Below, in pieces: positions 1-9,777 of a stretch of DNA of 10,296 nt (its first letter is position 1; each line of letters starts with the position of its first letter). The position numbers and the translations under genes are program-made. This DNA is from Solirubrobacteraceae bacterium (lineage in GTDB: Bacteria; Actinomycetota; Thermoleophilia; Solirubrobacterales; Solirubrobacteraceae): NCBI GenBank assembly GCA_030043235.1, contig JASHYF010000240.1, positions 1-10,296 of the forward strand, written 5' to 3'. The notes under the pieces were generated by a model. It was given only the letters and a program-made list of their open reading frames with translations, was not told the origin of the DNA and did no database searches.

Positions 1-938
1 TCCTCCGCGCCCACGAACCACGTGCGCAGGCCCCGCCAGCGCTCGAACAGCTCGGCCTGGCGAAGCGCGCGCTGCTCATCGACGGACATGCCTCCCGGCA
101 GCGCCACGAACTCCTCCGCCGCGACGATCCGCCCGACGAGCTGCCCGGAGCCGGCCTCCTCGATCCGCTCCAGCAGCGCGAGTATCTCCGCCGAGTGCTG
201 CATGCGGCTCTTGCGAAAGCCCTGCAGGTGCTCGAGCAGCGCCCCCTTGCCGCGCTCGAACTCCTCCTCGTCGACCTGCTCGACCGTGCGCATGATCTCG
301 CCGAGCGAGCGCATGAACGCGAGCGCGCCCGCGTGCAGAGCCTCGACCTCCGCGAGCACGCGCTCGAACAGCTCTCGCAGCCGGGTTCCCGCCGGCTGCT
401 CGCGATCGAGCTCCCGGGCGAGTCGCGCTAGCGCGTCGCGGATCGAAGGCAGGCGCGCGGTGTCCAGCCGCCCGATCTCCTCGCCGAGGGCGTCGAGCCG
501 CGCGAGCAGCTCCTCGGTGATGCGGCCCGCCGGCGTGACGTCGTAGGTGTAGCGGTTGCGTCGCCACTCCGCAGCAGTGGCGGCGAGGCTGGCGTCATGG
601 TCGCGCTCGACGGCGCCCCAGCGGTCGAGCGCCGCCAGGCGCTCCTCAAGGCGATCCTCCTCGATGCTCAGCGCGTAGCGCTCGCGCAGGCGGTCTGCAA
701 GCTGAGCGGGGCGCAGCCGCAGGCCGAAGGCCTGGTGCTCGAGGTAGAGCACGCGCATGATGCGCCGGTAGGTCTCCGCCTCTTCGGCCGTCGCGTAGCT
801 GAGCACCGAGTGGGCACCGAAGCGCTCCGCGACAGGGGTGCCTGCGTCCGCGACGACAGCCTCGCCAGCGGCCGGCTCGACGACTCCCGCGAGCTCCAGC
901 CCGGCGCCGAGCAGCGCAGGCGAGAGCTCAGGTTGCAT
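1..938 (-). CDS. jetA: DUF2397/TIGR02677 protein, JetA-type Wadjet subunit (5' part; runs off window)
   Basis: The N-terminal 312 residues are visible; the family usually runs to about 500, so the C-terminal part lies beyond base 1. The TIGR02677 opening is clear: residues 46-63 (LSYATAEEAETYRRIMRV), then an FGLRLRPAQL block at 71-80, a winged-helix-like stretch at 101-140 containing LDRWGAVERDHD and an RNRYTYDVTPAGR end, and long helices rich in E/R/L from 141 on. DUF2397 proteins are the kleisin-like JetA component of one class of Wadjet (JetABCD) systems, SMC-family complexes that recognise and cleave small circular plasmids. The ATG at 938-936 lies inside the end of the upstream sigma-like gene (11-nt overlap), which points to translational coupling. 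The first 45 or so residues are an extension before the conserved start. The family is recognised by motif, not by search; jetB, jetC and jetD are expected downstream but not visible. Confidence 0.85.
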   Translation of the reverse strand, partial: MQPELSPALLGAGLELAGVVEPAAGEAVVADAGTPVAERFGAHSVLSYATAEEAETYRRIMRVLYLEHQAFGLRLRPAQLADRLRERYALSIEEDRLEERLAALDRWGAVERDHDASLAATAAEWRRNRYTYDVTPAGRITEELLARLDALGEEIGRLDTARLPSIRDALARLARELDREQPAGTRLRELFERVLAEVEALHAGALAFMRSLGEIMRTVEQVDEEEFERGKGALLEHLQGFRKSRMQHSAEILALLERIEEAGSGQLVGRIVAAEEFVALPGGMSVDEQRALRQAELFERWRGLRTWFVGAE

Positions 939-1386
939 GGTCGCTTCGCTCGCGATCGTGGAGGGGCTCTGCCTGCACAAGCCCGGACAGGCGCAGATCG
1001 AGCAGCACATGCCGCGGCGGAGCGCCGCGCGCGAGCGCGTCGGCGACATCGCGAGCGGTGGTGGGCAGCTCGATGTGGGTCTCGGCGAGCGCCATGATCT
1101 CCTGCTGTTCGGCGACGCTGAGTCGGTGCGCGGCGGGATGGCGGCCGCGATGGCGCTCGACTGAAGGCACGTGGCCGCGCTCCACCGCCGTGTCGAGCAC
1201 CTTTCCGCCGAGGCGGAGCAGCCAGCTGACCGCCTCGTCTCCTGTGGGCGCCGACTCCCATCGGAGGCGCGCCGTGGCGAGCGTCTCGGTGGTGAGGTCG
1301 TAAGCAAGCGCGGGGTAGCGGACGCTGCGCAGGAAGACGGTGAGGAGCGATGTGAACCAGCGCTCGGCGAACAGTTCGAACTCCAT
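928..1386 (-). CDS. sigma-70 region 2-like protein lacking region 4, coupled to jetA
   Basis: A 152-aa product. Residues 2-70 follow the ECF sigma region 2 pattern: F-x-x-F-A-E-R-W at 3-10, a hydrophobic helix, YPALAYDLTTETLATA at 24-39 (the D-L-T-x-E-x-[FL] signature), and EAVSWLLRLGGKVLDTAVERG at 51-71 in place of the usual W-L-x-x-I-A-R-N-x-x-x-D. The C-terminal half (about 72-152) has no recognisable helix-turn-helix region 4, so it may not act as a normal sigma factor. Start choice: the frame stays open to an ATG at 1464, with another at 1413. Codons between 1464 and 1386 lose the G/C third-position bias and contain an AT-rich stretch, and the sigma-like domain begins right after the ATG at 1386. 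No convincing Shine-Dalgarno decides among them. The stop overlaps the jetA start. A regulator or accessory protein of the defence operon is an inference. Confidence 0.72.
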   Translation of the reverse strand: MEFELFAERWFTSLLTVFLRSVRYPALAYDLTTETLATARLRWESAPTGDEAVSWLLRLGGKVLDTAVERGHVPSVERHRGRHPAAHRLSVAEQQEIMALAETHIELPTTARDVADALARGAPPRHVLLDLRLSGLVQAEPLHDRERSDHAT

Positions 1387-1412
1387 AGGTGGCTGATTCG
1401 ACAAAACCCGCA

Positions 1413-1418
1413 TTATCT
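1413..1418 (-). promoter_or_regulatory. possible -10 element (GATAAT) ahead of the sigma-like/jetA genes
   Basis: On the minus strand GATAAT (5 of 6 matches to TATAAT) lies about 26 nt before the ATG at 1386, in a locally AT-rich island. No good -35 hexamer sits 16-18 bp upstream. If real, the sigma-like and jetA genes would have their own promoter apart from the 452-aa gene. The same bases encode part of the protein if translation starts at 1464. Confidence 0.3.
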
Positions 1419-1499
1419 TCTTCAAAGGATTGCGACGGGTCCGGACGGAACGAGGTCGAGGCATCGGTCAATCTCGCCCTCGCGGCTTGACTGGGGCCG

Positions 1500-2858
1500 T
1501 CAGCGTCGATTGCGGCGGCGAGCCTGCTTTGCCGCGGTGCGCTTGCTGCGGCTGGTGCTCGTCCGCCGGCGTCTTTGCGGCTGAGCTCGCTGGCGGGAGT
1601 CCTCGCGCGTGCCGGCCAGCCTCGCGTTGTACGCCGCGATCCACAGCTCAGCGGCCGCCGGATCGGTGGGGTCCACGCCCTCGGCGATCATCTGCATGGC
1701 GATCGACTTGCTCATGCCCCAGCGAGAAGGATCCCGGCACGCCGCGGCGCTTCCGCGGCGAAGGCGCTCGCAGGCTTCCGTGAGCGCGTCTACGCGGTCC
1801 CCTTCGAGCTTGCCCGCTCGATCGAGGAAGCCCATGAATGCGGAGAGGCAGTCGGGCAGCGTCTCGATCGCCTCCTCGTCCATCGTCATCTTGCGTGGCG
1901 CGCAGTCGAGCATGAACTCTTCGACGTGGGCCACCGTCCAGCGGGTCGGGTGTCCGTCGTGATAGTCGCGTTTCCAGTCGAGCAGCGCGCAGGAGATGAA
2001 CTCTCCGTGGCGCCAAACCGCGCTGTCGAGGCCGTGCTCATCCTGCACATAGCGCCCGTAGTCGCGGACCAGCTCGTCGAGCACGGCCTCCTCGGCGGCG
2101 TTTTCCCCGGAGGAAGGCCCGTCTTCATCTTCGTCTTCGTCCAACTCGGGGTAGGTCGTGACGTGGCCCAGGGCCTGCGCATCGCTGCTGATCGCGCGCG
2201 CGAGGATCGGCAGGCATACGCCCACCTCCAACGGCGCCGTGAGCTGCGCCTCGTTCATGCGCTCGACCACGGTACGAACACGCTCGGTCAGCGCTTGCTC
2301 GGTCGATCGCTCGGCTCGTTCGGTCAGCTGGGCGAGCGCTGCATCGAACTCGTCCGCCGGCCCCGTTCCGGTCAGCAGCGCATCGACCGCGATCGGCCCC
2401 TCCTCGCCGGTCGCGAGCATCAAGCACGCCGCCTGCGGCGCGCCGGCTCCCGGACGATCGAGGACGGCTACCCACGCTTCACCGGAGGGAATCTCACCGT
2501 TCCAGACCTCTCTCACCGTGAGCGTGCCGACGGCGCCGGCCGCCCCTTCCTCGCGCACGGGAAGTCCACGTGCCGCCCGCGACGCAGCGCGGGCGATCGT
2601 CTCACGGCCGAACGCGCTGAGCACCGCCAGGACACCGGCGGACGCCTCACAGCCGCGGTCCGCGAGTGTGTCGACGAGCATCTTCCCCAGCTCCGGGGGT
2701 ACGCACGGATCGTCGAAAGTGGCGAGCAGCGCGACCCCAATTCGCTCCAGCCCGACGACATCGCCGGCGATCTCCGGCTCCTCGAGCAGCTCATCGAGAC
2801 GCGCTCGTGTTGACGTTCGAATCGCGTCGAGCTCGTCCTCGGTGATCGTTGCCGACAT
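1500..2858 (-). CDS. conserved-looking protein of unknown function, acidic linker and basic tail
   Basis: A 452-aa product that I do not recognise. It starts with the ATG at 2858 (MSATITEDELDAIR); the frame is open further upstream to about 3542, but that part overlaps the opposite GGDEF/EAL gene and reads as non-coding. Visible layout: a helical N-terminal region (1-110), a mixed region with V-W-N-G-E-I-P-S-G-E-A-W-V-A-V at about 127-141, a long E/R-rich helix around 185-210, an acidic linker (PELDEDEDEDG, about 238-248), then a helical domain with RWTVAHVEEFMLDCAPRKM and DCLSAFMGFLDRAGKL, and a very basic tail of some 35 residues. The tail could bind nucleic acid or the ribosome. No signal peptide or membrane segment. 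It lies 113 bp upstream of the sigma-like gene on the same strand (35 bp if that gene starts at 1464), so an operon with the Wadjet genes is possible but not shown. Confidence 0.8.
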   Translation of the reverse strand: MSATITEDELDAIRTSTRARLDELLEEPEIAGDVVGLERIGVALLATFDDPCVPPELGKMLVDTLADRGCEASAGVLAVLSAFGRETIARAASRAARGLPVREEGAAGAVGTLTVREVWNGEIPSGEAWVAVLDRPGAGAPQAACLMLATGEEGPIAVDALLTGTGPADEFDAALAQLTERAERSTEQALTERVRTVVERMNEAQLTAPLEVGVCLPILARAISSDAQALGHVTTYPELDEDEDEDGPSSGENAAEEAVLDELVRDYGRYVQDEHGLDSAVWRHGEFISCALLDWKRDYHDGHPTRWTVAHVEEFMLDCAPRKMTMDEEAIETLPDCLSAFMGFLDRAGKLEGDRVDALTEACERLRRGSAAACRDPSRWGMSKSIAMQMIAEGVDPTDPAAAELWIAAYNARLAGTREDSRQRAQPQRRRRTSTSRSKRTAAKQARRRNRR

Positions 2859-3197: not shown

Positions 3198-5510
3198 ATG
3201 GAACACGCCGGACACTTGATGAGGCCTGACCGCCCAGCCGCCGACCCGGCCTGCCGCCTGCCGGTCGAGAGCTCGACGGACTTTCTGGCGCGCGTGGGTC
3301 CTGACGTGAGGTTCACGTATGTGTCCGCCGGCTGCGAGAGGCTCACGGGGTGGGCGGCTGAGGAGCTCGTCGGGCGAGATATGCACGAGCTCGCTCATCC
3401 CGATGATCTTGCGGATGCGCACGCTGCGCACGCGGCAGCGCTGTGTGCCACCGGGCCGAGCACCGCGGTGCTGCGGATGCGCTGCAAGGACGGGGGCTTT
3501 GTGTGGCTGGAATCGATCGCCCACTCGCTGCGTGACGAGCATGAGGCGATCTCAGAGTTCCAGGTGGTGTTCCGCGACGCCAGCGCCCGTGTGCGCGCCG
3601 AGCAGCAGCTCGCCCAGCACGCCCGTCAGCACGGCGCCGTCGCGCGTCTCGGGCAGGTGGCGCTGCGCGAGCAGGACCTGTCGACGCTCGTCGAGGAGGT
3701 CGTGGCAACGGTCGCGAGCACCCTCGCGGTGCAGCTCTGCGGCGTGCTCAGGCTGCGCGAGGACGATGACCTGCTGGACATCCTCGCCCACGCGGGCGAC
3801 TGGGCTGGCGAGACCATCGGCCTGCCCGCCGGGACGGGCACGCAGGCCGGCTACGCGCTCGCCACGGGCGAGCCGGTGATCGCCGAGGATCTTCGCAGCG
3901 AGAGGCGCTTCGATGCCAGCAACCTGCTCAGCGAAGGCATGCTCAGCGGCATGGACGTGATCATCGCGCGCCACGAGCGACCGTTCGGCGTGCTCTCGGC
4001 CCACGCAACGCAGCCCCGGCGCTTCAACGTCGACGACGTGAACTTCCTGGTTGCGGTCGCCAACCTGCTCTCCGCGGCGGTCGAGCATCACCGCAAAGAG
4101 GAGCTCACCCGGCACGCTTCCCTGCACGATCCGCTGACCGGACTGCCGAACCGCACGCTGGCGCTCGATCGCCTCGATCGCGCGCTCGCCAGGCGCCGGC
4201 GCGAAGGGATCGACGTGGCGATGCTGCTCCTCGACCTCGACCGCTTCAAGCTCATCAACGAGTCGCTCGGTCACGCGACCGGCGATGAGCTGCTGGTCGT
4301 TCTGGCCTCCCGGCTGGCCGACGCGGTGCGCTCCAGCGACACGATCGCGCGCCTGGGCGGCGACGAGTTCGTCGTCGTCTGTGAGCGCGCCGGCGGGGTG
4401 CGAGAGGTCGTGGCGCTGGCCGAGCGCATCGCCGGAGTCGTGAGCCGGCCGTATGTGCTGGACGGCGACGAGCATGTCCTGACGGCGAGCGTCGGCATCG
4501 CCGTCGCCGACGGCAGCGAGGACACCGCCGCGTCGCTGCTGCGCGACGCCGACGCGGCGATGTATCGCGCCAAGCATCGCGGACCGGGCCGCTTCGAGCT
4601 GTTCGATCCGGCGGTGCGCTCCCAGGTCCTCGCCAGGCTGAGGACCGAGACGGAGCTGCGATATGCGATCGACCACGCTCAACTGCTTGTCCACTACCAG
4701 CCGATCCTCGACGTCGCCAGCGGCCGCCCGGTGGCGACCGAGGCTCTCGTTCGCTGGCAGCACCCGCACCACGGCCTGATCCCCCCGCTGGAGTTCATCT
4801 CGATCGCCGAGGAGACGGGCCTCATCCTCGAGCTCGGGCGCTACGTGCTCGAGCAGGCCTGCGAGCAGTGCGCGGCGTGGCAGCGGCGCTTCGGCGTTCC
4901 GCTGCAGATGTTCGTCAACGTCTCGGGCTGTCAGATCGCCAACCCGCGGTTCGCCGTGGAGGTCGCCGAGCTCGCGCGACGCAGTGGTCTGCTGCCGGGG
5001 ACGCTCGCGATCGAGGTCACCGAGAGCGTCCTGATCGACGAGCGTGGCTCGATGACGGTGCTCGAGACTCTGCACACGCACGGCCTGCGGCTGCTGCTCG
5101 ACGACTTCGGCACGGGCTACTCCTCGCTGAGCTATCTCAGGCGCTTCCCGCTGGACGGCGTGAAGGTCGATCGCTCGTTCATCGACGGTCTCGACGGCAG
5201 CCCGAAGGACGTGGCGATCATGAAAGCGATCGTCGAGATGTGCCGCGTTCTCGGCCTCGCGGTGGTTGCCGAGGGCGTCGAGTCCGAGACCCAGCTCGAG
5301 CAGCTGGGTCAGCTCGGCTGCGAGAACGTGCAGGGCTACCTCATGTGCCGCCCGATGCTCGGCGCCGTGGTCAGCGAGTTTCTCGAGCAGCGCCTCGCCG
5401 AGGGCCCAGCGCCGCCGGCGCGGACGCGCAGCAGCGCCGCCGCTCCAGGCCGCCCAGCATTGCGCGCCGACGCACGCCTGCGCGCATCACGAGACGCGTC
5501 TCGCACATGA
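3198..5510 (+). CDS. PAS-GAF-GGDEF-EAL c-di-GMP turnover protein
   Basis: A 770-aa cytoplasmic signalling protein; no membrane segment seen. Order: PAS about 26-132 (FTYVSAGCERLTGW, HPDDL), GAF about 150-300, GGDEF about 305-470, EAL about 485-730, then a low-complexity Ala/Arg tail. The cyclase domain has DPLTGLPNR (311-319) and an intact GGDEF (387-391), with the inhibitory I-site RSSD (378-381) exactly five residues before it. The phosphodiesterase domain keeps EALVRW (515-520), NVSG, EVTES, DDFGTG (635-640), the KVD lysine, AEGVE and QGY, so the residues used for metal binding and catalysis are present. By family knowledge it may make c-di-GMP from GTP and degrade it to pGpG, under control of the PAS/GAF sensors. 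Start is uncertain: ATGs at 3069, 3198 and 3219 share the frame, and 3198 or 3219 places the PAS domain near the N-terminus. Confidence 0.95.
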   Translation: MEHAGHLMRPDRPAADPACRLPVESSTDFLARVGPDVRFTYVSAGCERLTGWAAEELVGRDMHELAHPDDLADAHAAHAAALCATGPSTAVLRMRCKDGGFVWLESIAHSLRDEHEAISEFQVVFRDASARVRAEQQLAQHARQHGAVARLGQVALREQDLSTLVEEVVATVASTLAVQLCGVLRLREDDDLLDILAHAGDWAGETIGLPAGTGTQAGYALATGEPVIAEDLRSERRFDASNLLSEGMLSGMDVIIARHERPFGVLSAHATQPRRFNVDDVNFLVAVANLLSAAVEHHRKEELTRHASLHDPLTGLPNRTLALDRLDRALARRRREGIDVAMLLLDLDRFKLINESLGHATGDELLVVLASRLADAVRSSDTIARLGGDEFVVVCERAGGVREVVALAERIAGVVSRPYVLDGDEHVLTASVGIAVADGSEDTAASLLRDADAAMYRAKHRGPGRFELFDPAVRSQVLARLRTETELRYAIDHAQLLVHYQPILDVASGRPVATEALVRWQHPHHGLIPPLEFISIAEETGLILELGRYVLEQACEQCAAWQRRFGVPLQMFVNVSGCQIANPRFAVEVAELARRSGLLPGTLAIEVTESVLIDERGSMTVLETLHTHGLRLLLDDFGTGYSSLSYLRRFPLDGVKVDRSFIDGLDGSPKDVAIMKAIVEMCRVLGLAVVAEGVESETQLEQLGQLGCENVQGYLMCRPMLGAVVSEFLEQRLAEGPAPPARTRSSAAAPGRPALRADARLRASRDASRT

Positions 5511-5558: not shown

Positions 5559-7571
5559 ATGGGAGCGCAAGCGCCGGTCCTGCGGCTGCCGGGTGAGCTC
5601 ACCGCCCACTGGCTCGAAGAGGCGCTCGGCACCGGCCCGATACGGGGCCTGCGTGTCGAGCCGGTCGGCACCGGGCAGATGAGCGAGACCCGCCGCGTGC
5701 GCCTCGACTACGGCCCCGGCGCGAGCAGCGGGCCCGCGACGATCCTCCTGAAGACCGCCTCCGAGGACGAGAACAGCCGCGCGGCCGGCGTCGGGCTCGG
5801 CGTCTACGAACGCGAGGTCAGCTTCTACCGCGAGCTCGCGCCCCGCATCGGCGGCCCGCTGCCCGCCTGTCATCTCGCCGTCATCGACCCCGAGGAGGGA
5901 TGGTTCACGCTCGTGCTCGAGGACGTGGCCCCCGCCCTCCAGGGGGACCAGATCGCGGGCTGCAGCGTCGAGCAGGCGCGCCTGGCGATCCGTGAGCTGG
6001 CGAGGCTGCACGCGCCGGTGTTCGCCGACCCGCAGCTGGGGGCGACCGCCTGGCTGAACCGGGGCAGTCCGCTGGACCAGGCGCTGGTCACGCAGCTGCT
6101 GTCGGCCTTCCTGGAGCGCTTCGCGGGCCGCGTCTCGGCCGAGCACCAAGACGTCTGCCGGCGATTTGTCGCAAGCCTGGACGGGTGGGCCGCCGACCGG
6201 CGTCCGCCGCTCGGCCTCGTGCACGGCGACTACCGGCTGGACAACATGCTGTTCGGCTCGGACGACGCGCCCCGCGGGTTCGTCGCCGTCGACTGGCAGA
6301 CCGTCAGCTGGGGGCCGGTGATGACCGACGCGGCCTACTTCCTCGGCGGCTCGTTGTCGATCGAGAACCGCCGCGCGCACGAGCAGACACTCGTCCGCGA
6401 GTACCACGGCGCGCTCCACGCGCACGGCGTGCGCGGCTTCGCGTGGGCGGACTGCTGGCTCGAGTACCGCCGGCAGGCGTTCCTCGGAATCCTCATGACC
6501 GTCGCGCCCGCGATGATCGTGCAGCGCACCGAGCGCGGCGACGAGATGTTCCTCGCGGCGCTCGAGCGCTACGCGCAGCAGGTGCTCGACCTCGACGCGC
6601 TCGAGCTGCTCCCGCAGCCTGGCTCGGGACGCCCGCGAGCGTTGCGGCCGCAGCCGGCCGACGAGGCGCGACACGAGCCCGGGCCGGAGGAGCTCTGGAA
6701 CGAGAGCTGGTACTTCGACGCGATCTCCGGCGACCGTCGCATCGGGATGTACACGCGTCTCGGCCTCTATCCGAACCTCGGCGTGTCCTGGATCACGGCG
6801 TGCATCTGTGGCCCCGATCGCCCGACCCTCGCCGTCCTCGACTTCGCCGCGCCGCTGCCGGACGGCGAGCGGCTCACGGTCGATGCGCACCGCGTGCACG
6901 TAGAGCATGTCTGCGAATCCGGGCTCGAGCGCTTCCGCGTGCGCATGCGGGCGACCGGCGAGGCGCACGCCGACGCCTCGGCGCTGCTGCGAGGCGAGGC
7001 CGGCGACCCCGTCCCGCTGGGATTCGAGCTCTCGTGGGAGACGCTCGGCGAGCCCTACGCCTATCGCGTGGCCACCCGCTATGAGATCCCCTGCCGCGTG
7101 AGCGGCACCATCACCGTGGGCGAGGAGCGCATCGAGCTGCTCGGCGTGGGACAACGCGACCACTCCTGGGGCACCCGCGACTGGTGGTCGGCCGAGTGGA
7201 TGTGGTCGGCGGGGCACCTGAACGACGGAGCGCGCTTCCACGGCGTTGAGTTCCGCCTGCCGGGCGTCCCTCCGCTCGGCGTCGGCTACGTGCAGCCTGC
7301 CGATGGAGGCGTCCTCGAGCTCGACGGAGTGAGCGCGTCCGAGGAGGTTGCCCCCAACGGGCTGATCGACAGCGCGAGAATCGCCTACGGCGAGCTCGCC
7401 CTCGACGTGCAGCCGCTGGCCTTCGGGCCGCTGCGGCTGCAGGCGCCCGACGGGCGGATCTCACAGTTCCCGCGAGCCATGTGCCGCGTCGATGCCGGGG
7501 ACGGCCGGACGGGCGTCGCGTGGGTCGAGTGGAACCGCAACGTGTCGGCACGGTCGCCGTCGGCACGGTAG
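5559..7571 (+). CDS. APH-like kinase domain fused to a DUF7065/DUF7064-type lipocalin-like module
   Basis: A 670-aa product. Residues 1-350 are an aminoglycoside-phosphotransferase/choline-kinase-like domain: K65 in ILLKTA and E86 in YEREVSFYREL as likely ATP-site residues, LVLEDVAP, LARLHAP, the Brenner motif HGDYRLDN (222-229) and VDWQTVSWGP with D245 as likely metal ligand. All key kinase residues are present. Residues about 385-660 carry WNESWYFDAISGDRRIGMY and GQRDHSWGTRDWW (531-543) and end in a GVAWVEWNR block. This is typical of the DUF7065/DUF7064 pair, which I believe is related to the CrtC/AttH lipocalin-like fold; that link is from memory. The substrate is unknown; a small hydrophobic alcohol is a guess. 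The ATG at 5559 has no clear Shine-Dalgarno and follows a GATTAG box closely. The gene lies 48 bp after the GGDEF/EAL gene on the same strand. A TCGGCACGG word is repeated 15 bp apart just before the stop. Confidence 0.9.
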   Translation: MGAQAPVLRLPGELTAHWLEEALGTGPIRGLRVEPVGTGQMSETRRVRLDYGPGASSGPATILLKTASEDENSRAAGVGLGVYEREVSFYRELAPRIGGPLPACHLAVIDPEEGWFTLVLEDVAPALQGDQIAGCSVEQARLAIRELARLHAPVFADPQLGATAWLNRGSPLDQALVTQLLSAFLERFAGRVSAEHQDVCRRFVASLDGWAADRRPPLGLVHGDYRLDNMLFGSDDAPRGFVAVDWQTVSWGPVMTDAAYFLGGSLSIENRRAHEQTLVREYHGALHAHGVRGFAWADCWLEYRRQAFLGILMTVAPAMIVQRTERGDEMFLAALERYAQQVLDLDALELLPQPGSGRPRALRPQPADEARHEPGPEELWNESWYFDAISGDRRIGMYTRLGLYPNLGVSWITACICGPDRPTLAVLDFAAPLPDGERLTVDAHRVHVEHVCESGLERFRVRMRATGEAHADASALLRGEAGDPVPLGFELSWETLGEPYAYRVATRYEIPCRVSGTITVGEERIELLGVGQRDHSWGTRDWWSAEWMWSAGHLNDGARFHGVEFRLPGVPPLGVGYVQPADGGVLELDGVSASEEVAPNGLIDSARIAYGELALDVQPLAFGPLRLQAPDGRISQFPRAMCRVDAGDGRTGVAWVEWNRNVSARSPSAR

Positions 7572-9291: not shown

Positions 9292-9777
9292 TCACTCCAT
9301 CAATGTCGCCTGCCAGTTGTGCTCCTGCACGCGGTTGTCGAGCTCGCGACGCTGCCTTGACAGGTCGTCGAGCCGGTCCTGCAGCTCGCTGACACGAACG
9401 TGGCGCACCGTGCGGATCTCCGAACGGCTGTAGCGCGAGAACCCTCTCCCCAGCAAGCCGTCGTCGCCGGTGGCGGCCTTGATGGCCGTGCGCAGGGCGC
9501 CCTGGCGCAAGGCGATCACGTCGCGACGCGCAAGCGCCTCGGTCACGGTCTCTCCGGCCGCGAGTCTCGCTTGCGCGTTTGCGTGGTTGATCTTCGCGAT
9601 CAGGCTCTCGAGCTCGTCGCACCGCCGGTCGATCTCCGCCAGCAGCTCGTTCGGGTTCTCGGGCGGCTCCTCGCCCTCCTGGGCCACGACGCAGGCGCGC
9701 AGGCGATCCTGCAGCTGGGCGATCCGCCTCTGCAGGTCGGATCGGTGGTTGAGCGCTTCTCCAATGATCATGTTCAT
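9292..9777 (-). CDS. DIP1984-family protein
   Basis: A 161-aa, largely alpha-helical, charged protein that I recognise as the DIP1984 family, named from a Corynebacterium diphtheriae protein of unknown function. Family landmarks: an N-terminal EALNHRSDLQRRIAQLQDRL helix (7-26), VAQEGEEPPENPNELLAEID, IAKINHANAQARL, TVTEALARRDVIALRQG, the YSRSEIRTV motif and a C-terminal LDNRVQEHNW. Two or three long helices predict a coiled-coil bundle in the cytoplasm; no enzyme motif or membrane segment is visible. The ATG at 9777 is used, with a second ATG two codons in; the upstream region has no Shine-Dalgarno and instead carries a palindrome starting 8 nt upstream, so a short or absent leader is likely. 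Divergent from the patatin-like gene. Role unknown. Confidence 0.9.
   Translation of the reverse strand: MNMIIGEALNHRSDLQRRIAQLQDRLRACVVAQEGEEPPENPNELLAEIDRRCDELESLIAKINHANAQARLAAGETVTEALARRDVIALRQGALRTAIKAATGDDGLLGRGFSRYSRSEIRTVRHVRVSELQDRLDDLSRQRRELDNRVQEHNWQATLME

Follow-up and report, generated by a model that had tools for sequence, protein, structure and literature searches.

A truncated, sigma-related gene overlapping jetA in a type II Wadjet locus of Solirubrobacteraceae

Introduction

Type II Wadjet systems consist of JetABCD, with the families DUF2397, DUF2398, TIGR02680 and DUF2399. The subject here is a gene for a sigma-like protein that precedes and overlaps jetA, the DUF2397 gene, in a stretch of 10,296 nucleotides (nt) from a Solirubrobacteraceae bacterium (GCA_030043235.1, contig JASHYF010000240.1). 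This stretch, hereafter the window, is an entire contig (C395) of a 59%-complete metagenome-assembled genome (MAG).

In the defence system mzaABCDE, the gene mzaA is described as a sigma factor (PMC9523054), and CASP-sigma of type III-E CRISPR is described as similar to the extracytoplasmic function (ECF) sigmas, with sigma2 and sigma4, and as inhibited by Csx30, itself the target of a protease (PMC10028731). The Wadjet system of Mycobacterium smegmatis is EptABCD, its type being unspecified there (PMC10586767). Among the literature matches listed, a set from which bioRxiv preprints and most subscription papers were absent, no description of a sigma-like gene with Wadjet was found. Those matches that pair 'sigma factor' with Wadjet or JetABCD do so in unrelated mentions, apart from mzaA in PMC9523054, the sole relevant paper on MzaA among those matches.

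Results

The locus comprises the following features of the window.

928..1413, minus strand: sigma-derived gene, 161 amino acids (aa), with a sigma2 fold (residues 10-81), a linker and a truncated sigma4-like domain (residues ~96-148)
928..938, minus strand: overlap ATGCAACCTGA, 11 nt, containing the sigma-like stop and the jetA start
3..938, minus strand: jetA of type II Wadjet (DUF2397), 312 aa out of ~543, truncated by the contig end
1417..1423, minus strand: Shine-Dalgarno-like GAAGAAG, read from the sequence, three bases ahead of ATG 1413 (a short spacing)

The 11-nt overlap between the stop of a sigma-region-2-like gene and the start of jetA, reported in a preliminary description of this DNA, is exact: the jetA start occupies 938-936 and the sigma-like stop, TGA, 930-928. 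The two proteins are therefore probably co-translated. The sigma-like gene had earlier been started at 1386, giving 152 aa. A start at ATG 1413, giving 161 aa, is likelier, because many relatives begin MGELSD at the corresponding place (61 of 118 have this signature), the GAAGAAG motif lies just ahead, and the third-position GC bias is present from 1413 and missing in the 51 nt at 1414-1464; relatives are also mostly at least 160 aa long. A scan of window positions 900-1700 found no sigma-70-type promoter.

On the same strand, a gene at 1500-2858 (start chosen by hand) has its end 86 nt ahead of the sigma-like gene and could share a transcript with it. Its 452-aa product has no Pfam match over the cut-off.

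The assignment of jetA to Wadjet was borne out, and specifically to type II, by matches to PF09660 DUF2397 in Pfam (E 1.7e-47) and to JetA2 in PADLOC (E 7.7e-47). The partner genes jetB, jetC and jetD, which the preliminary description sought next to jetA, were located in part. Another contig of the same MAG (C40) begins inside jetC and carries its 3' part (TIGR02680, E 9.5e-149, model positions 464-1354), followed by jetD (DUF3323, 6.7e-34; DUF2399, 2.2e-28); the association of C40 with the jetA of the window is at the level of the MAG. The 59%-complete MAG yielded no match to jetB (DUF2398), which does not imply absence; the window itself stops within jetA. The closely related Conexibacter sp. 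DBS9H8 has jetA, jetB (DUF2398), jetC and jetD consecutively, and the proteins after jetB are 60% and 55% identical to the jetC and jetD products of the MAG.

The recurrence of the sigma-like gene was examined by protein search, which returned 118 clusters including that of the window. The 117 others show 44-73% identity, nearly all of them 54-73% over most of the length, and 5 of the 118 are shorter than 140 aa. Three relatives carry organism names (Solirubrobacteraceae, Solirubrobacterales and Conexibacteraceae). The corresponding jetA searches used the best 120 of 234 and the best 120 of 246 clusters, 136 different ones in all. Each 90% cluster was represented by its longest contig only, and clusters of the two kinds were considered linked when these contigs were identical in nt size, with shifted sizes serving as the control. 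At least 16 of the 117 relatives have a close jetA on a contig of exactly equal size: 14 pairs came from the first jetA list (control mean 0.52 overall, 0.1 for contigs above 6 kb), two more from the second (control 0.09). When only contigs of at least 10 kb were considered and the window was excluded, at least 12 of 29 sigma-like clusters were matched to a jetA.

The protein ends suggest that the overlap itself is present in most relatives. The C-terminal codons are compatible with an ATG that gives an overlap of exactly 11 nt in 90 of the 118 sigma-like proteins (related proteins rather than independent counts), compared with 4.8% of internal positions and none of 136 JetA C-termini. Overlaps of 8, 14 and 17 nt are permitted in 36, 22 and 3 of the 118, so that 11 nt is a clear peak; the neighbouring values are raised too because H and D are frequent in the sigma-like tail. 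An overlap of 4 nt carries no information, being permitted in 116 of 118 (control 0.87). When both protein ends of a pair were imposed, an 11-nt overlap was possible in 11 of 14 pairs and in 41% of cross-pairs; one of the remaining three fits 8 nt, one 4 nt only, and one no overlap. Distances among the sigma-like proteins correlate with those among the JetAs (Mantel r 0.848 with p 1e-4 over 17 rows, one of them the window), which is what common descent would give. The sigma-like gene recurs on jetA contigs and is not the one-off that the preliminary description had allowed for.

A plasmid collection contained no relative of the sigma-like protein, and viral contigs contained relatives of neither this protein nor JetA. 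Profile scans over overlapping genome sets (146, 232 and 399 genomes) revealed no second family member. Matches near E 1e-11 in genomes G163 and G380 were rejected, as they lie on contigs other than those of jetA and keep a full sigma4 in sequence (in L036 also by Pfam). When 299 genomes were scanned with the single sequence, all matches besides the window's own protein were at ~27-39% identity.

The sigma-like assignment is real by profile methods and falls below the Pfam cut-offs for single sequences, with Sigma70_r2 matching 3 of 30 family members (best E 0.017). Profile comparison identified SigR (1h3l, E 4.3e-4), and hhalign of the family against 20 ECF sigmas gave a probability of 98.6 (E 8e-16, as a single-comparison value) in an alignment extending to the beginning of the recognition helix. 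The AlphaFold model (mean predicted local distance difference test score, pLDDT, 89) has a sigma2 fold, and the sigma2 domain characteristic of ECF sigma factors is present. A complete sigma4 with its recognition helix is lacking: Sigma70_r4 matched none of the 30 members, while three related ECFs match Sigma70_r4_2 at 7e-12 to 6.5e-11. The family is related to ECF sigmas, truncated, and a separate, divergent group relative to them.

The protein appears to descend from a sigma factor whose DNA-reading domain has been lost in part. The basic sigma4 recognition helix VVRKRVSR is replaced by LVEAEPLP, the IARN signature of region 2.4 is replaced by LGAx, and the mean net charge is -5.3 across 118 family proteins, compared with 0.0 across 24 related ECF frames. 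These changes weaken the earlier suggestion that the protein could drive expression of the operon, at least in the manner of an ordinary sigma factor. It could still be a working minimal ECF-type sigma, the first gene of an autoregulated operon, whose -35 contact is altered or dispensable; the retained sigma2 fold and presumed beta-prime-binding helix would fit, as would the precedents of dedicated ECF sigmas in CRISPR loci (CASP-sigma; PMC10028731) and of mzaA, termed a sigma factor (PMC9523054), and the autoregulation of ~55% of the ECFs with predicted regulons (PMC8103513). Given the replaced motifs, the acidity and the negative promoter scan, this explanation is considered unlikely.

The most conserved part of the protein is the helix at residues 35-52 (0.91, with regions drawn by hand), the equivalent of the beta-prime-binding region 2.2. 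This conservation is suggestive of binding to the polymerase core. It also bears on the idea of sigma mimicry, in which the protein would titrate an anti-sigma factor and free a real ECF sigma encoded elsewhere, by partner switching comparable to that of the PhyR sigma-like domain and NepR. PhyR is degenerate in its polymerase contacts (PMC8103513), whereas here that helix is the best preserved, and no anti-sigma partner turned up, although no search was aimed at one; a mimic of this kind appears quite improbable.

The leftover sigma4-like part is also conserved (0.82-0.83) and has residues of the family's own, which suggests selection for something new. HTH_32 gave matches in 22 of the 30 members, with a best E of 0.0051; the window protein scored 17.7 bits, where the cut-off is 33.7. 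These matches were taken as a helix-turn-helix-like remnant of sigma4. One of the 30 members matched JetD1 of PADLOC (E 0.0032), which was taken as chance, and the PADLOC sigma models matched none of them. A retained sigma2 with a truncated sigma4 might instead be half of a split sigma whose DNA reading falls to JetA or to an unlinked protein, as in SigO-RsoA, split sigmas being known to exist (PMC8103513). However, the truncated sigma4 is itself conserved and no partner consisting of sigma4 alone came to notice in the window, where no specific search was made; such a division of labour is highly improbable.

JetA carries a conserved N-terminal feature that may be relevant to the function of the sigma-like protein.

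882..929, minus strand: JetA N-terminal peptide ELSPALLGAGLELAGV, residues 4-19, conserved, with a variable linker (residues 20-36) next to it

In this clade, conservation of JetA is 0.72 over residues 4-18, 0.27 over the linker (20-36) and 0.84 over the domain at 38-60. This layout of peptide, linker and domain would be typical of a tethered binding motif. The peptide occurs in 15 of the 16 paired JetAs (in one of them partially), the sixteenth being annotated from a later start, and also in 104 of 120 unpaired JetAs (score of at least 30; background maximum 29).

The position of the sigma-like gene as first gene of Wadjet loci, proposed in the preliminary description, is recurrent but not universal. 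DUF2397 exceeded the cut-off in 20 of 146 genomes of the window's bacterial family, and the sigma-like gene was present only in the window's own genome. Many of the other jetAs of the 20 belong to other subgroups with differing N-termini, and the six that attain E 1e-60 besides those of DBS9H8 and the window are 38-42% identical to P0134. Close jetAs without the gene are those of DBS9H8 (69% identity) and palsa_744 (79%).

Upstream of jetA in another jetA subgroup of the same bacterial family, a different protein of ~150 aa was observed. It is encoded at 485-961 (plus strand) in L045; one part of it is charged and probably coiled-coil, and its end is reminiscent of a HARE-HTH winged helix. A ~150-aa protein also lies upstream of jetA in L047 and L054, the distance to the DUF2397 match being 144-269 nt, and the proteins of the three loci have a weak DUF2605 match only. 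They may represent a second kind of Wadjet-associated regulator.

Four jetA frames, that of palsa_744 and those of P0202, P0243 and P0249 (three of the 136 database jetAs), bear the sigma start signature, in the forms MGKLSD, MGELSD, MGELSS and MGDLSD. The signature was not found elsewhere in the 136 JetAs beyond residue 60.

L032 (palsa_744), 4872-5000: JetA N-terminus with the sigma-like start signature, an apparent deletion scar

The sequences of palsa_744 and P0249 are alike. The four frames apparently arose by deletion, in one or perhaps several events, which placed the sigma start in front of jetA. These jetAs support the gene order, with the sigma-like gene before jetA, and indicate that the sigma-like gene is dispensable; it is optional for the Wadjet clade. 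Apparent loss with fusion of the start to jetA (P0202, P0243, P0249, L032) would also fit a passenger retained only for translational coupling or a leader function, its product having no role in defence. Against this, nearly all of the 117 relatives are 54-73% identical along most of the protein, and family-specific residues are strongly conserved; a passenger is decidedly improbable.

Two further genes of the window were noted. A DUF6847 protein (9292-9777, minus strand, E 6.1e-48) is unconnected with the sigma-like gene and jetA, and the gene at 5559-7571 (plus strand) encodes an EcKL/APH-type kinase fused to DUF7064/DUF7065 domains.

Discussion

The explanation favoured here, tentatively and at a little under an even chance, is that the sigma-like gene is a conserved fifth gene, though an optional one, in a clade of type II Wadjet operons of Solirubrobacterales-type actinobacteria, and that its product is a JetA-partnered, polymerase-facing adaptor or regulator. 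The protein would be a descendant of the ECF group that has kept the sigma2 fold, chiefly the helix that grips beta-prime, has lost the sigma4 recognition helix, and is produced in step with JetA. Given the loss of that helix and the acidic character, the protein is probably no sigma factor that reads promoters on its own; a role as protein partner or regulator would fit better. JetA is the inferred partner from the overlap, the co-inheritance and the JetA peptide taken together, and docking on this conserved N-terminal peptide would be most likely. Of the other roles suggested in the preliminary description, work with the SMC (structural maintenance of chromosomes) complex would have circumstantial support in these three observations, and sensing of plasmid entry would be a hypothetical role. 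The conserved polymerase-binding helix suggests polymerase contact, perhaps through the sigma2.2 face, and Wadjet output might thereby be coupled to transcription or to its own dosage.

It is also conceivable, although unlikely, that the protein is an adaptor tying the Wadjet loop extruder, via the JetA N-terminal peptide, to RNA polymerase, such that transcription on incoming DNA helps to load or license the plasmid-cutting complex. If true, this would connect a transcription initiation fold directly with an SMC defence system, a connection of which no description was found among the literature matches listed. A co-inherited fifth type II protein with a polymerase-type fold, probably co-translated with JetA, is a concrete candidate for a new partner or regulator of anti-plasmid Wadjet in some actinobacteria.

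In comparison with known systems, the locus agrees with type II Wadjet in its DUF2397 JetA and in the TIGR02680 jetC 3' part and DUF3323-DUF2399 jetD of the same MAG, and differs in the extra sigma-derived first gene overlapping jetA, which DBS9H8 is without. Like ECF sigmas such as SigH and SigR, the protein has the sigma2 fold, and it can be aligned with them until the recognition helix begins, but its family has lost that helix and its basic residues and is acidic and divergent. With CASP-sigma, as in the present case, a defence locus includes a sigma-like gene dedicated to it; here the system is an SMC nuclease and neither an inhibitor nor a protease was identified. Neither PhyR nor SigO-RsoA is known to lie in a defence operon. 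The PhyR sigma-like domain and SigO-RsoA are partial or degenerate sigma folds with new jobs, as the family here may be, but PhyR is a response regulator and RsoA acts with a sigma4 partner (PMC8103513). MzaA likewise is encoded by a sigma factor gene in a defence system, one missing from many related systems (PMC9523054); that system is a different one, and the comparison is by description rather than by sequence. Sigma genes in other defence systems and degenerate or split sigmas are already known, and what appears to be new here, within the literature matches listed, is a sigma-derived gene in type II Wadjet.
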